Shown in pieces: positions 20,096 to 30,218 of a stretch of DNA of 64,000 nucleotides. The notes beneath the pieces were generated by a model, which did no database searches, had not been told where the DNA came from, and saw nothing but the letters and a program-made list of their open reading frames with translations. Made by a program: the position numbers and the translations under genes. Within the stretch, counting starts at the first letter, position 1, and the number at the start of each line of letters is the position of its first letter. The stretch is from Candidatus Kapaibacterium sp. (GTDB lineage: Bacteria > Bacteroidota > Ignavibacteria > Kapaibacteriales > HRBIN21). The DNA lies in contig JANXCT010000002.1 in NCBI GenBank assembly GCA_025059875.1, positions 217,180-281,179 on the forward strand, in the 5' to 3' direction.

Positions 20096-21712
20096 CTATG
20101 GCCTCTCTGTGTGCTCTCTAGGGGGCTGTTCTCCTCTCCCCTGCTGTGCAATCCGCCATGCCACTCGGGCTACCAGCAGCGCCACACGAGAGAGCTTGTC
20201 CGGGTTGATCTTCTCAGCATGGTCGCTCGGCCGATGGTAGTCCTCGTGGAGGCCCGTGTGGAAGAAGGCCACCGGGATGCCTCGTGCAGCAAAGGAGGCG
20301 TGGTCACTGCGTCCAAACAGGTCCTCTGCTTCTCGCCCAATCAAGAACGGGGTGGGAAGACGACGGTTCTCCTGCTCTATGAGCCTCAGCAACCACTCTC
20401 CGCGTACCCCGACGGAGAGCGAATCCGGATGGTTGCGCCCAATCATGTCCATGTTGAGCATCGCAAGACAACCATCCAACGGCAGAGGTGGCTGACGTAC
20501 GAAGGCCCGTGAGCCGAGCAAGCCCTTCTCCTCACCGCTGAAGGCAACGAAGACAATCGTCCGCTCCGGGCTCCGCTGCATGCGGCTCAAGGCCCGGGCA
20601 ACGAGCATGAGTCCTGCTGTACCGGAAGCGTTGTCATCAGCACCGTTGTAGATGGAGTCTGCAGAACCTGGCGTCGCCATGACGCCGACGTGGTCGTAAT
20701 GGGCCCCAATGAGCACGTACTCCTGTGGCCGCATCCGACCACGGAGCATTCCGACAACGTTTGGGACTCGAACGCGCTCCACTTCCCGAAAGGCCACCGC
20801 AATGTCCACCGAAACCCCCGGTAACGGCTCTATTAGAGCCTGACCAAGGCTATCTGCAGCACGAACACGCTGTCGGAAGACCTCCTCAGCACCGAAGAGA
20901 GCCTCTAGGACCTCGCTGCCGACACTGTAGATGACCGGCACCTCTGAATCCTCTGTCGGCAGTTGTAGCGGAGGCCCGTAGCGAGAGAAGGCTGGATTCA
21001 GCGCTGGCCAAGGATAGCGCTGCGGACGGAGCTTCCGTTGTCCCTCTGGGTAGTTGACCACCAGCATCCCAACGACCCCATATCGATGGAGCAATCGGCC
21101 GAAGGCCATGAGAGGGGGCTGGGAGGCAGTATGCTCTCGCTCGGCTGTATCGCGGCTGCCAGACACAGCACGCACGAAGAGGACCACCGAGCCACGAAGC
21201 TTCTGGGCTGCCTGCGCCACTACTACAGAGTCAGGAACCCCAGGACCGACGAGCACGAGTGGAGCCTGGGAGTAGCACCCTGCAGCCGTCGTGGGGTGCG
21301 GCACTGCGTGCTCTGGGATTTGAGCTTCCCAAACTGCGGAACCCCGCTGAATACGCAGCTGCAGACTGTCACGGTCGACATCGCGGCGCACCAACTCGTA
21401 GTAGTGCCAGTAGCTATCCCCGATAGGCTGGAGTCCCCAACGTTGGAAGGCCGCTGCCAGATACTCTGCTGCTCGCAGTAATCCAGGGCTCGGTGTATTC
21501 CGCCCCTCGAGCTCATCGGAGGCCAGGAACTCAACGTACTGCCGGGCACTGTCAGGGATGAACTCACGGGAAGCCCACCTCGGTAGCTCGCTACCCGGAA
21601 CGCAGCCACATAGCCCAACTACCAACAGCGCCAAACTGCTGACACCGGGAGCGGTAACTCGACATCCACAAAGCCGCCCCACCCCCCTGCTTGCTCGAAA
21701 CGCCTTCTTCAT
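20096..21712 (-). CDS. M28-family zinc aminopeptidase-like lipoprotein
   Basis: 538 residues. The N-terminal signal has lipobox LCGC (Cys37), suggesting an outer-membrane-anchored enzyme. A PA-like insert (about 140-260) precedes and follows parts of the catalytic fold. Zinc ligands of the M28 di-zinc site are visible: His338 in GAHYDH, Asp in GADDNASG (357-364), the catalytic/ligand pair Glu394-Glu395 in SGEEKG, Asp422 in NMDMIG and His493 in DYHRPSD. Likely removes N-terminal residues from peptides outside the inner membrane. Confidence 0.9.
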   Translation of the reverse strand: MKKAFRASRGVGRLCGCRVTAPGVSSLALLVVGLCGCVPGSELPRWASREFIPDSARQYVEFLASDELEGRNTPSPGLLRAAEYLAAAFQRWGLQPIGDSYWHYYELVRRDVDRDSLQLRIQRGSAVWEAQIPEHAVPHPTTAAGCYSQAPLVLVGPGVPDSVVVAQAAQKLRGSVVLFVRAVSGSRDTAEREHTASQPPLMAFGRLLHRYGVVGMLVVNYPEGQRKLRPQRYPWPALNPAFSRYGPPLQLPTEDSEVPVIYSVGSEVLEALFGAEEVFRQRVRAADSLGQALIEPLPGVSVDIAVAFREVERVRVPNVVGMLRGRMRPQEYVLIGAHYDHVGVMATPGSADSIYNGADDNASGTAGLMLVARALSRMQRSPERTIVFVAFSGEEKGLLGSRAFVRQPPLPLDGCLAMLNMDMIGRNHPDSLSVGVRGEWLLRLIEQENRRLPTPFLIGREAEDLFGRSDHASFAARGIPVAFFHTGLHEDYHRPSDHAEKINPDKLSRVALLVARVAWRIAQQGRGEQPPREHTERP

Positions 21713-25495: not shown

Positions 25496-28291
25496 TCAAC
25501 GCGACACTGGGGAGAGTATACGACGCAATTCTGCATCAGGCTCTTGCTGTGCGCAGGCAACACGCAAGCGCTCTCTCCATGGGGTTGCTCGTTGCTGCGA
25601 TATTGCAATGTAGGCTACCTGTCTAAGCTCTGCTGGCTGCTGCAGAAGGAGCTGAGCAACACGCCGGACTGGAGTGGTCGTATCCAGTCCAACCGCCAGC
25701 CACCCCAAGCTCCTACGCCACTTCGGAGGCAGAGGAAGGTTCCAGAGCTCCTTCAGGAGTGAGGTCGGCAGTGAGCCGTACTGCAGTGCCCCCAAAACGG
25801 CGCTGGACCGCACGACGTAGAAGGAATCTTGCAACACCTGGAGCCAAAGCTCACGCGGTTGTCTCGGCCACAGCCGCATGAGAGCAAAGGCGGCCCGAGC
25901 ACGCACCATTGGATGGGCATCATTAAGAGACCGGCGCAGCAGCCGCTGTACCGATGTATCGCCGATCTCCCCTAGGCGGAGTGCAGCCATTGCTCGTATG
26001 TACCATCGGCTGTCTTCGAGCAGCTCCGCAAGCGCCGGCAGGGCTGCCTTGAGGCGTAGCTTCCCCGCCACCATTCCCATCAGCGCTAGGGTACGCTCGT
26101 TCTTCGAGCGGAGGGAGTCCACGATGAGCCGGCGTAGCGCAACGCTGTCCTGCTGGTCAATCCTCGGCAGGATATCCTCCAACGCAATTCGCTCCCGCAC
26201 AGACTCCGTCGCAAACTTCGTGGCCAGATATGGCAGGGCGGCCGCACCGAGCTTGGCAATTTTCTCCCGTGCCGGCTGGATGATGTACTGAAAGCGGAGA
26301 TGGGCTGCTGAGGCCTGTGCGAAGAGGCTGTCTATACTCTCCGCTAGCGGCATGCGGAGCGAGTCTGGCACATCGATGCCCGGCCGTGGTGGTGGAGGAA
26401 GAGATGGTAGCAACTCGGCGTCCAGCAACGCACCGTACGTTGAACCAATTCGGGAGCGCCTGTTGAGGACCGTATCAGCGTACCAGTCCGTCCCTTCTGC
26501 ATCCGCGAAGACACCAATGCTACCGTACTGCCGGCGGAAGTCGCCGTAGCCCATCGTATTCTCGCGTCGAGCAACGTAGGTGTCGCGCCCGTGGAGGTCT
26601 AGTAGTAGCGCCAGCCCATTGGCATTCGCTGCACCCTGCGAGAGGCTCTCGCACGCATACGTGTCATCACCAGCAGCATCGTAGAGCGCGCCAAGGGCAA
26701 TGTCATGCCCACACCCTTGCGAGACACCGAACGAGAGATACACGTCAGAGCCAGCCGCGTCCCACAGCAGCCCAAAGGCCAGATGGACTCCTGCCCCTTG
26801 CGCGTACTGATGCGCAACATAGCGGTCGTCGCCCTGCCAATCCAGCAGAGCCCCTATCGCATACCAGTAGGCCGTCCCTTGTCCATAGATGTCGCTGACG
26901 TAGGTATCGTTGCCAGCACTATCGAGCAGGATGCCGATTCCCCCAGAAGCCAATGGCCGGTAGCCGAGCGCAGCTCCCTGAGTGAAAGTGAGGAACCGCT
27001 GCTCGTAGCGGAGCGCGTCTACGTAGGGGCTTTGAGCGATGTAGGAGTCATTGCCTGAACGGTCCACGAGTGCCCCATAACCGCGAACGAACCCGAATCC
27101 CTGCCCCTGGGCAAAACACCGGTAGAGATCGTTACCCCCGCGGTCCATGAGAAGCCCAACGCCAAAGGCAGCGGCCCCCTGTCCATGGATGCCGCATACA
27201 TAGAGATCAGCCCCGCCACCATCCCATAGGAATCCCAAGCCCGCTAGGGCCGCGCCTTGGGAGAAATGTCGGCTCCGATAGGTGTCGTTGCCCTGGAGGT
27301 CTATGAGGAACCCACACCCAAAGAACCCGGCACCGAGGGTGTAGTCCCCACCATCGTAAGAGTCATCCCCTGCCAAGTCCACCACAATCCGCACCGGGCG
27401 CTCCAACGCCGCCGACTTCGACAGCGCCGGAAACACGTATCGGTCGTTCCCGCCGACCTCCAGGATGAGGGTAAAATCCCCTACATAGGTGTCCTCGCCC
27501 GGACCCCCGACAGCAATGCGCCCATACGGAGTCTCCAGAATGGTCGTCCAGACGCTATCCCGGTAGCGGTCTAAAGGAGGGCTATTCCGTTCCACCGTGG
27601 CCCAAATTGCCCGCCAGAGCGACAGCATCGGAGCAAGCAATCGATGCCATGGGACTTCAGCCGCCACTTGGAAATATTCACGCACCCGCTGCAGCCCCCA
27701 AAGCTCTCGCTGGCGAAGCTCAAAGAGCGAGGCTCGGGGCTCATCCTCCGACAGCATCAGCAACGAATCCAAGAGCTCCGCTAGGAGCGGGAAGGAACGA
27801 AACGAGCTCCGCACCTGGCTGATCTCCCACCACGCTAGCACGAGCGGCACCAGATACTGTCGGAGCGACGTTGCCGCAATGAGGCCCAGGCGCCTTTCCA
27901 ATTCCACTCCAAGGAGGCTGTCGACTTGGTGTGCCGACAGCTGTTGCTCATAGTACCGCGGCGTATACTCCCCAAACGCCAAGAGTTCGCTCCACTGTCG
28001 CGCTGTCGCATCCAGCGTAGCCGGACGCAATGTCAAGAGCTGCTCGGCTTGGCGTGTGGCGAATTCAAAGCTGCTGAAGGGCTCCCGAAAGAGCGCGCGG
28101 ACAGCCGGGAGGCGGTGCTGATCTACTTCCCCGATATCACCCGGCAACCACCAGTCCCACCGAGATACGCCCAACAGAGCAAGGGCTGAGTCAACTGCAC
28201 GCAAGGCTTCCGGTGATAGCTTCGGTACTTGCGCTTGCAGTAGTGCAGCACTGCCCAGCACAGCTACTACGACGGCACACGCTGCTCGCAT
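25496..28291 (-). CDS. large exported protein: tandem 26-residue G-x-L-x-D-x-x-G-x-D-x-Y repeats plus HEAT repeats
   Basis: 931 residues with a signal peptide (MRAACAVVVAVLGSAALLQA). Residues 20-265 are helical with no domain I recognise. Residues 272-605 hold about eleven repeats of roughly 26 residues, e.g. GFLIDLQGNDTY, GLLMDRGGNDLY, GALLDWQGDDRY, each followed by a QG-A/G segment; one repeat is lengthened near 420-450. Residues 740-905 hold HEAT-like helical pairs (ALPALAELLEDSRWYIRAMAALRLGEIGD). The regular Asp/Gly/Tyr pattern suggests a beta-solenoid, perhaps metal-stabilised (inference). The start overlaps ribD by 25 bases and the stop abuts dnaE. Function unknown. Confidence 0.85.
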   Translation of the reverse strand: MRAACAVVVAVLGSAALLQAQVPKLSPEALRAVDSALALLGVSRWDWWLPGDIGEVDQHRLPAVRALFREPFSSFEFATRQAEQLLTLRPATLDATARQWSELLAFGEYTPRYYEQQLSAHQVDSLLGVELERRLGLIAATSLRQYLVPLVLAWWEISQVRSSFRSFPLLAELLDSLLMLSEDEPRASLFELRQRELWGLQRVREYFQVAAEVPWHRLLAPMLSLWRAIWATVERNSPPLDRYRDSVWTTILETPYGRIAVGGPGEDTYVGDFTLILEVGGNDRYVFPALSKSAALERPVRIVVDLAGDDSYDGGDYTLGAGFFGCGFLIDLQGNDTYRSRHFSQGAALAGLGFLWDGGGADLYVCGIHGQGAAAFGVGLLMDRGGNDLYRCFAQGQGFGFVRGYGALVDRSGNDSYIAQSPYVDALRYEQRFLTFTQGAALGYRPLASGGIGILLDSAGNDTYVSDIYGQGTAYWYAIGALLDWQGDDRYVAHQYAQGAGVHLAFGLLWDAAGSDVYLSFGVSQGCGHDIALGALYDAAGDDTYACESLSQGAANANGLALLLDLHGRDTYVARRENTMGYGDFRRQYGSIGVFADAEGTDWYADTVLNRRSRIGSTYGALLDAELLPSLPPPPRPGIDVPDSLRMPLAESIDSLFAQASAAHLRFQYIIQPAREKIAKLGAAALPYLATKFATESVRERIALEDILPRIDQQDSVALRRLIVDSLRSKNERTLALMGMVAGKLRLKAALPALAELLEDSRWYIRAMAALRLGEIGDTSVQRLLRRSLNDAHPMVRARAAFALMRLWPRQPRELWLQVLQDSFYVVRSSAVLGALQYGSLPTSLLKELWNLPLPPKWRRSLGWLAVGLDTTTPVRRVAQLLLQQPAELRQVAYIAISQQRATPWRERLRVACAQQEPDAELRRILSPVSR

Positions 28292-29430
28292 TGGTCCGGC
28301 TCGCCCTGTTGCTCCCCGACCCCACTACTATGCACGATTGGTTCCTTGAGGGCAATGATGTGGAGGTCATTGCCACTCCGCATGACGGCCTGAATGTGAA
28401 CAGGCCACACCTGTTCTAACGTCTCCACCGCCCACTGCTCGAACGGATGGCGACCGGCTCCAAAGACCTTCGGGGCAATGAAAACATGGAGCTCATCCAG
28501 GAGACGATGCCGGAGGCATGAAGAGAGCAGCACGGCTCCCCCTTCCACCAGCACCGAGGCGATGTTGAAATGCTCCGACAGCAGACGGAAGAGCGCTGGG
28601 AGCTGCAATCGGCCATCCTCTCCGATGGGAGCTGCCATCAGTTGGATGCCGCTTCTGCGGAACGTCTCCGCCTTACGAGTCTGTAGTGCTTGTGGAGAGC
28701 AGCAGACGATAGTGCGCTCACGGTACTCGTCGGTAAACACAAAGCTCATCAGCGGAAGTTGGAGCCCCGTATCCAGAACGACTCGCCAAGGTTGGCGTCC
28801 TGGAACATCTCTGACAGTCAGCCGCGGGTTGTCTCGGAAGACTGTGTTCTTGCCTACCATCACAGCATCCAGCTCTGCCCGAAGGGCATGGACGCGACGG
28901 CGGCTCTCCTCACCTGTAATCCAGCGCGACTCCCCTGTCGGCAGAGCAATGCATCCGTCTAGTGACTGTGCAATCTTGCCAACGACATACGGCATGCCGG
29001 TGGTGATGTGCTTGGCAAAGAAGCGATTGATCCAGCGGCACTCTGGCTCCAACACTCCCACTCGAACCTCAATGCCTGCCTGGCGCAGTTGCTCGTATCC
29101 CCTCCCCGCAACGAGCGGATTAGGGTCAAGCATCCCTATCACGACGCGGGCGATTCCGGCAGCAATGATCTGAGACACACACGGCGGAGTCTTGCCATAG
29201 TGGACGCACGGCTCAAGAGTCACCACCATCGTTGCCCCACGGACCTCCTCAGTCGCATTCTGCAGTGCCATAACCTCAGCATGCGGGGCCCCGTAAGCAG
29301 CATGCCATCCCTCTCCAATGATCCGTCCCTCCTTGAGGATGACGCAACCTACCCGCGGATTCGGACTCACTCGCCCCGTCCCACGGAGCGCAAGTTCTAT
29401 AGCTCGCCGCATCGCCCGTTCGTCGGTCAT
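28267..29430 (-). CDS. ribD: bifunctional riboflavin biosynthesis deaminase/reductase
   Basis: 387 residues. The N-terminal deaminase (1-145) has the zinc site HAEV and PCVHYGKTPPC. The C-terminal reductase (150-375) begins PYVVGKIAQSLDGCIA and has the GxxTV-type motif MVGKNTVFRDNP. The enzyme carries out steps two and three of riboflavin synthesis. The ATG at 29430 overlaps the stop of the upstream lipoprotein gene (ATGA), so I prefer it to the GTG at 29445. No other rib gene is in the window. Confidence 0.95.
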   Translation of the reverse strand: MTDERAMRRAIELALRGTGRVSPNPRVGCVILKEGRIIGEGWHAAYGAPHAEVMALQNATEEVRGATMVVTLEPCVHYGKTPPCVSQIIAAGIARVVIGMLDPNPLVAGRGYEQLRQAGIEVRVGVLEPECRWINRFFAKHITTGMPYVVGKIAQSLDGCIALPTGESRWITGEESRRRVHALRAELDAVMVGKNTVFRDNPRLTVRDVPGRQPWRVVLDTGLQLPLMSFVFTDEYRERTIVCCSPQALQTRKAETFRRSGIQLMAAPIGEDGRLQLPALFRLLSEHFNIASVLVEGGAVLLSSCLRHRLLDELHVFIAPKVFGAGRHPFEQWAVETLEQVWPVHIQAVMRSGNDLHIIALKEPIVHSSGVGEQQGEPDQCEQRVPS

Positions 29431-30218
29431 CGCTGCGGTCCCCACTCCAGCGGAACCGTCACACTGTACTCATGGGGACGCGCTGGCAAAACGAGCCGTA
29501 GGCTGTATCGCCCCGGTGGAAGGCGCTCCCCCGTAGGTAGGTGGCCATCCCAGCGGTATTCGTAGACGCTCTCAGCCCCGACTGTCTCCGGCTCAACGAC
29601 CCCGATGACCTGCAGGAAGGCCATTCCCTCAGCAGAGCTCCATATGCGCTTGATGCCGCGGTAAAGTTCCAGCCGTAAGCGTTCCGACGTAGGGAAGTAC
29701 TCCCTATCAATGGCCTCCAACCGACGCACCCGTAGCCGCACCACAAGACCAGAATCTAACGCGGTAACCTCCGGCATCAGCAGTAGCGCCCCGTCCCGAT
29801 GCAAGCGCTGAAGTCTTTGCCGTCCGCGTTCTATCCTTGCACCGCTTCGGAGCTCATACTCCAGCAGTACCTCTGAAGGGATTTCGTTAGGGCGGCTCCG
29901 TAGGGTCGACCGTCCCTCCAGTAGCAGTGACACTTGCTCACCCGCACCCGTTGTCATGCCACTGAGCATCGGCACGAGTTCGCTCCGTTCCAGTAGGCGC
30001 CCTTCTGGCCCATACAGCGACAGTTGGATGGCCTCAATTGAGCGCAGCCACTGTACCTCCTCCTGTCGCGATGCTCCAGCCCGTACAACCACAACTGCAG
30101 CAGTATCCGTCGTCTCCAACCGCCACTCTAGCGACACCTTCTTCATCCCTACGAGTCCCCCTCGGCAGGAGAGAATGCCAGCAGCCCAGATGAGTAGGAT
30201 GACCACTGGAGTCCTCAT
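29427..30218 (-). CDS. lipoprotein with C-terminal BsuPI-like domain
   Basis: 263 residues. A signal with lipobox ILSC (residues 15-18) predicts a lipoprotein. The C-terminal third (about 160-262) matches the layout of the BsuPI intracellular proteinase-inhibitor fold: LELYRGIKRIWSS, GMAFLQVIGVVEPE, then YRWDG, LPPGRYSLRLVL. The N-terminal part may be a second, weaker beta-sandwich (VSLEWRLETTDTAAVVVV ... LSLYGPEG). In this lineage such domains are found in envelope proteins and need not inhibit proteases. It is translationally coupled to ribD and follows the oxidoreductase gene by 4 bases. Confidence 0.65.
   Translation of the reverse strand: MRTPVVILLIWAAGILSCRGGLVGMKKVSLEWRLETTDTAAVVVVRAGASRQEEVQWLRSIEAIQLSLYGPEGRLLERSELVPMLSGMTTGAGEQVSLLLEGRSTLRSRPNEIPSEVLLEYELRSGARIERGRQRLQRLHRDGALLLMPEVTALDSGLVVRLRVRRLEAIDREYFPTSERLRLELYRGIKRIWSSAEGMAFLQVIGVVEPETVGAESVYEYRWDGHLPTGERLPPGRYSLRLVLPARPHEYSVTVPLEWGPQR

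Follow-up and report, generated by a model that had tools for sequence, protein, structure and literature searches.

What kind of protein carries a long run of Asp/Gly/Tyr repeats followed by HEAT repeats, and what might it do outside the cytoplasm? This question is raised by a gene in the window, the whole 64,000-nucleotide stretch of Candidatus Kapaibacterium sp. DNA that was analysed. The initial annotation, made from the sequence, had read the gene product as an exported protein whose residues 272-605 form about eleven repeats of 26 residues, with a signal peptide ahead of them and HEAT-like repeats behind. As it had claimed, the minus-strand segment 27478-26476 encodes these residues.

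Layout of the window protein

The protein starts with MRAACAVVVAVLGSAALLQAQ, and reading of this sequence confirmed that the N-terminus is signal-peptide-like (Table 1). When a strict home-made leader test was applied to the relatives, 58 of 77 passed, and a hydrophobic leader was seen by eye in several others. The protein is probably exported, and the periplasm is its likely location. Downstream of the repeats, the HEAT assignment was borne out by Pfam, in which HEAT_2 (47.2 bits against a cut-off of 27.7; 2.8e-12) and HEAT (35.6 bits against a cut-off of 23.5) were matched. A D..R....F..P-like motif of the N-terminal domain was seen again, by eye, in paralogs.

Table 1. Parts of the window gene, in positions of the window
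Feature	Position	Strand	Basis
Whole gene, 931 aa: leader, helical N-domain, 12-coil beta-solenoid, HEAT domain	25496..28291	-	ORF
Signal-peptide-like leader, residues 1-20	28232..28291	-	Sequence reading
All-helical N-terminal domain, residues 27-245	27557..28213	-	AF2 model
Beta-solenoid domain, residues 250-625	26417..27544	-	AF2 model; 3p4g match
Twelve D-x-x-G-[N/D]-D-x-Y coils, residues 278-604	26480..27460	-	Motif count, unit logo, conservation
Long coil 6, residues 410-456, with D425, R428, Y429, Q438, R445 and P446 inside	26924..27064	-	Spacing and conservation
Candidate conserved site, R445 / Y475-W476 / H503 / H529-D530, consecutive coils 6-9	26702..26959	-	Conservation
HEAT alpha-solenoid, residues 650-931	25499..26344	-	Pfam HEAT_2 and HEAT; AF2

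Coil number and spacing

Thirteen G-x-D-x-[YWF] motifs were found at residues 265-604, and 12 of them have the full [D/E]-x-x-G-x-D-x-Y form; when the protein was shuffled (n=10,000), the mean was 0.51 motifs and the maximum 5. The motifs are spaced by 16, 27, 26, 26, 26, 27, 47, 27, 27, 27, 27 and 32 residues, so that the unit period is 26-27 residues apart from the first spacing of 16, the 47-residue coil 6 and the 32-residue coil 11. Tandem repeats are thus present as first described, but their number is 12 coils plus one degenerate unit, the first, rather than about eleven. Since Tandem Repeats Finder detected no tandem repeat at the DNA level, the units appear to be old and diverged.

The unit logo reads D-x-x-G-[N/D]-D-x-Y-x-[G/A/S]-...-[S/A]-[Q/L]-G-x-G-...-G-x-G-x-L-x. 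It places two Asp ladders (D1 and D6) and a Tyr ladder along the whole solenoid, with an RTX-like turn on one edge. D1, D6 and Y8 were nearly invariant across all 12 coils in 119 profile-sampled sequences, comprising 88 of the main family and 31 that are mostly paralogs, HEAT-less ones included. The Asp ladder of the initial annotation therefore stands, but it is double and not one per turn.

The repeat count was then extended to relatives. Of 134 thinned sequences, the majority carry 12 coils, and the series 26, 26, 26, 27, 47, 27, 27, 27, 27, 32/33 is common to the most frequent spacing patterns, which occur in several phyla. The 47-residue coil, which corresponds to the extended repeat noticed earlier near residues 420-450, is kept across phyla. 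Because coil number and spacing are near-fixed across phyla, the solenoid is, as judged from the sequences, a single-copy architectural domain with a near-fixed and non-expandable coil plan rather than a variable-number array.

Predicted structure and comparison with known systems

AlphaFold2 run on the single sequence gave a useless model (pLDDT 37), and the model used was built on 78 aligned sequences (mean pLDDT 89.8, pTM 0.82). This model predicts helices in the N-terminal domain, a regular beta-solenoid mostly above pLDDT 90, and HEAT helices up to the C-terminus. An Asp-ladder solenoid with regular turns, joined to an alpha-solenoid as had been proposed, is accordingly present in the prediction.

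When the solenoid was compared with solved structures by VIA-align, the first rank was taken by 3p4g (Z 18.3, rmsd 2.9 A, 20% identity); the match spans residues 256-627 of a predicted model, with 262 of 313 residues aligned. That entry represents region IV of the Marinomonas primoryensis adhesin (MpIBP/MpAFP RIV), a one-sided, Ca2+-bound right-handed beta-helix built of 19-21-residue RTX-like repeats with the consensus xGTGNDxuxuGGxuxGxux (PMC3492233). On the model, the window domain has this overall fold, which is consistent with the Asp-ladder solenoid that had been suggested. However, since HEAT and other alpha-solenoid or repeat proteins took up the VIA-align list and both Foldseek lists (PDB and viral), other beta-solenoids were barely compared and may match equally well.

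Like MpIBP RIV, the window protein carries one G-N-D-x-u turn row per coil, which binds Ca2+ in MpIBP, and the sequence of the 3p4g PDB entry agrees with this likeness. The two domains differ in that the window coil has 26-27 residues, the rest of the coil being longer, and in that its unit adds a further Asp (D1) and carries the conserved R, W, H and D on a QG half-coil. The unit logo of the window protein shows no Thr/Asx ice array; moreover, the protein has a HEAT partner and an N-terminal leader, and no sequence-profile match to MpIBP RIV was obtained. The RTX beta-roll (PF00353, GGxGxDxUx) also shares the G-x-D-x-U turn and the stacked Asp, but it has two turns per 18 residues, whereas the window solenoid has one turn per coil. 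D1 stands where the RTX nonapeptide has Gly, and the protein has an N-terminal leader and a HEAT C-terminus instead of a type I secretion C-terminus.

Right-handed parallel beta-helices of the pectate lyase/pectin methylesterase type are likewise exported, and adjacent coils bear conserved residues of polar and aromatic type. The window protein gave no sequence match to these enzymes and no match to a Pfam enzyme family. Its C-terminal domain is a HEAT solenoid as in the HEAT/alphaRep alpha-solenoids (PF13646), but here it is fused to, or genetically paired with, a probably exported beta-solenoid.

Family searches and distribution

In the window protein, Pfam recognised only the HEAT part and left the repeats uncovered; NCBIfam gave weak matches far under the cut-off, all within the HEAT region, and PHROGs gave nothing. 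When the repeat domains of 21 orthologues were searched against Pfam, only stray sub-threshold matches appeared, and PF00353 was not among them. No RTX chain came up when profiles of the domain or a two-coil unit were run against the PDB, although repeats this short give such searches weak power. No relative was found in the phage and plasmid collections, and no description of the family in the literature searches. The well-described family that would have accounted for the repeats was therefore absent from Pfam, NCBIfam and PHROGs.

A whole-genome search found one copy in the window genome. Among close relatives, matches occurred in 41 of 61 genomes (40 of the 58 of good quality) and were mostly full-length orthologues; across Bacteroidota, the 23 positive genomes of 296 all fell within the same order or class. 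The gene is near-universal in the sampled Zixibacteria (111 of 118 genomes of the phylum of L098, titled Zixiibacteriota), and it was found in 55 of 80 genomes of the WOR-3 phylum (that of L099) and in two of nine of the Calditrichaeota phylum (that of L097); it is common in Kapabacteria as well as in WOR-3. A pattern-based genome scan gave 80 loci titled Kapabacteria, Ignavibacteria, Eisenbacteria, Zixibacteria, WOR-3, TA06, Calditrichaeota, Cloacimonadota and others, these names being taken from record titles, which may be wrong for metagenome bins. The family is undescribed and widespread in little-studied bacterial phyla.

The paralogs L111-L118 have a helical N-terminal part and the solenoid, and no HEAT. 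One of them, L116 (2224-4593, plus strand), shows an alternative architecture, in which a PDZ match below the cut-off (PF13180, 22.3 bits against 27) precedes the solenoid. The WOR-3 clade L176-L183 consists of HEAT-fused proteins and grouped with the HEAT-less paralogs on the tree; eight sequences lacking C527, D425 and R428 are probably these, which suggests a putative third subfamily.

Fused and split HEAT partners

In most of the loci whose core protein stops behind the solenoid (L081, L082, L086, L091, L092, L094-L096 and L098-L104), a homologue of the window C-terminal region is the next gene downstream. In Zixibacteria, HEAT followed the core at all 20 core loci inspected, one of them with an extra ORF in between. 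No HEAT homologue was seen in the flank examined beside the core genes of L080, L084, L085 and L093. Since HEAT is the next gene downstream in many phyla, the window protein can be regarded as a natural fusion. By parsimony on a quick tree, the fused or split state needs at least four changes, and two to three are required even when only the well-supported branches count; on this tree, the two forms have interchanged more than once.

Gene neighbourhood

The window gene overlaps the end of ribD by 25 bases. The initial annotation had found no functional clue in the ribD and dnaE setting, and indeed no pathway emerged from the neighbours; its description can be refined, since ribD lies upstream in 18 scan loci, a linkage wider than the genus, whereas dnaE is the adjacent gene in just four loci, those nearest the window, a genus-only linkage. 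Genes for TPR, NFACT/RqcH-like, RibD, xanthine-dehydrogenase-like, RNase_H_2 and HDOD proteins recur as neighbours within phyla but not between them. A pathway assignment from the neighbourhood was rejected, because neighbours other than HEAT are unconserved between phyla.

Several local arrangements were also recorded. In a Kapabacteria-group locus (L077, 3051-7022; the same gene in L026), a RibD-like N-terminus lies in frame with the protein in a single open frame of 1324 aa, which may be a fusion to RibD or may come from the assembly. Two genes downstream of the window gene (20096-21712, minus strand) there is an M28-type aminopeptidase-like gene; L035, L057, L076 and L107 also have related genes close to the core gene, with weak linkage, and Pfam showed M28 for the L035 gene alone. 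Window positions 29427-30218 (minus strand) encode a small protein that looks exported and has marginal FlgD_ig/BsuPI similarity; it is conserved near ribD in 14 scan loci. In several Zixibacteria (L081, L095, L104, L184, L185 and L187), the core gene is immediately preceded by a gene read from its sequence as TatC-like, and a LolB/DUF4292-like gene follows in L184 and L185.

A conserved strip on coils 6-10

Since the genome scan had been selected on the GVSQGCGH and QYAQG patterns, conservation was re-measured on the 119 profile-sampled sequences. R445, W476, H503 and D530 were each kept in 117, Q438 in 118 and Y475 in 116. In the main set, H529 never varies and C527 is mostly retained, and both vary in paralogs. 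Because 11 of 88 main-family sequences, and the paralogs as well, have another residue in place of C527, a general Cys-based site was discarded. Compared with coils 1-5, whose non-scaffold positions carry mean values of 1.5-2.5 bits, those of coils 6-11 carry 2.6-2.8 bits.

W476, H503 and D530 share one register, each being 8 residues ahead of the next D1 on three successive coils, and therefore should stack on coils 7-9. A spatial cluster of R, W, H and D is predicted from the register alone, and those that share a register might in part form structural ladders. The conserved R/YW/H/D strip may be a binding or catalytic site.

Proposed mechanism and alternatives

The analysis shows the repeats, the predicted fold, the fixed coil plan, the conserved residues and the linkage to HEAT; from these we infer calcium in the Asp turns, the location of the protein, and binding or catalysis. 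On balance, we favour an exported solenoid that is stabilised by Ca2+, bears a conserved binding or catalytic site and works with a HEAT partner, a reading that we regard as reasonably probable. The leader would export the protein, and Ca2+ taken up outside the cytoplasm after export would fold the solenoid. The D-x-x-G-N/D-D-x-Y turns would align on one edge, where Ca2+ would bridge two Asp rows stacked at about 5 A. The R445 / Y475-W476 / H503 / H529-D530 strip, opposite on the QG-containing half of coils 6-10, would bind or act on a ligand, while the HEAT alpha-solenoid would dock the solenoid or its client and hold the complex. The bolder idea that this is a new exported enzyme class (or a dedicated receptor), with R445, W476, H503 and D530 forming an active site along successive coils of a beta-solenoid that holds calcium, a HEAT partner, and a near-core gene of Zixibacteria and related phyla, is tentative and rather unlikely.

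HEAT repeats usually bind proteins. The protein might, then, be an exported assembly factor, in which the solenoid and the HEAT scaffold hold envelope proteins and the strip is a protein-binding surface; the TatC-like and LolB-like genes adjacent in some Zixibacteria and the paralog with the sub-threshold PDZ match speak for it. However, the neighbours vary between phyla and the linkage is weak, and we consider this reading possible but less probable than a ligand-binding or catalytic solenoid. It is doubtful that the protein is a purely structural or adhesive surface solenoid, of the RTX adhesin segment or ice-binding array type and with no specific active site: although the top fold match is an adhesin ice-binding domain, the near-fixed coil plan, the conservation of specific R, W, H and D in place of a Thr/Asx array, and an N-terminal leader with no RTX-type C-terminus all argue against it. 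A metal-free beta-solenoid, whose Asp would cap the turns by hydrogen bonds to backbone amides, would fit the replacement of the RTX Gly by D1 and the lack of a motif-level match to RTX models, but it is improbable, because two neighbouring carboxylate rows over 12 coils would repel without cations and the closest solved fold binds Ca2+. In RTX rolls, ions bridge the stacked Asp, and carboxylate repulsion otherwise destabilises the folded domain (PMC6891781); by this logic, the near-invariant double Asp ladder would imply bound cations.

The analysis defines an unannotated and strongly conserved family of probably exported proteins, and it supplies a testable candidate site and a partner. With it, RTX-like solenoids, known as segments of toxins and adhesins, would come to include a fixed twelve-coil domain, seemingly with a specific function.
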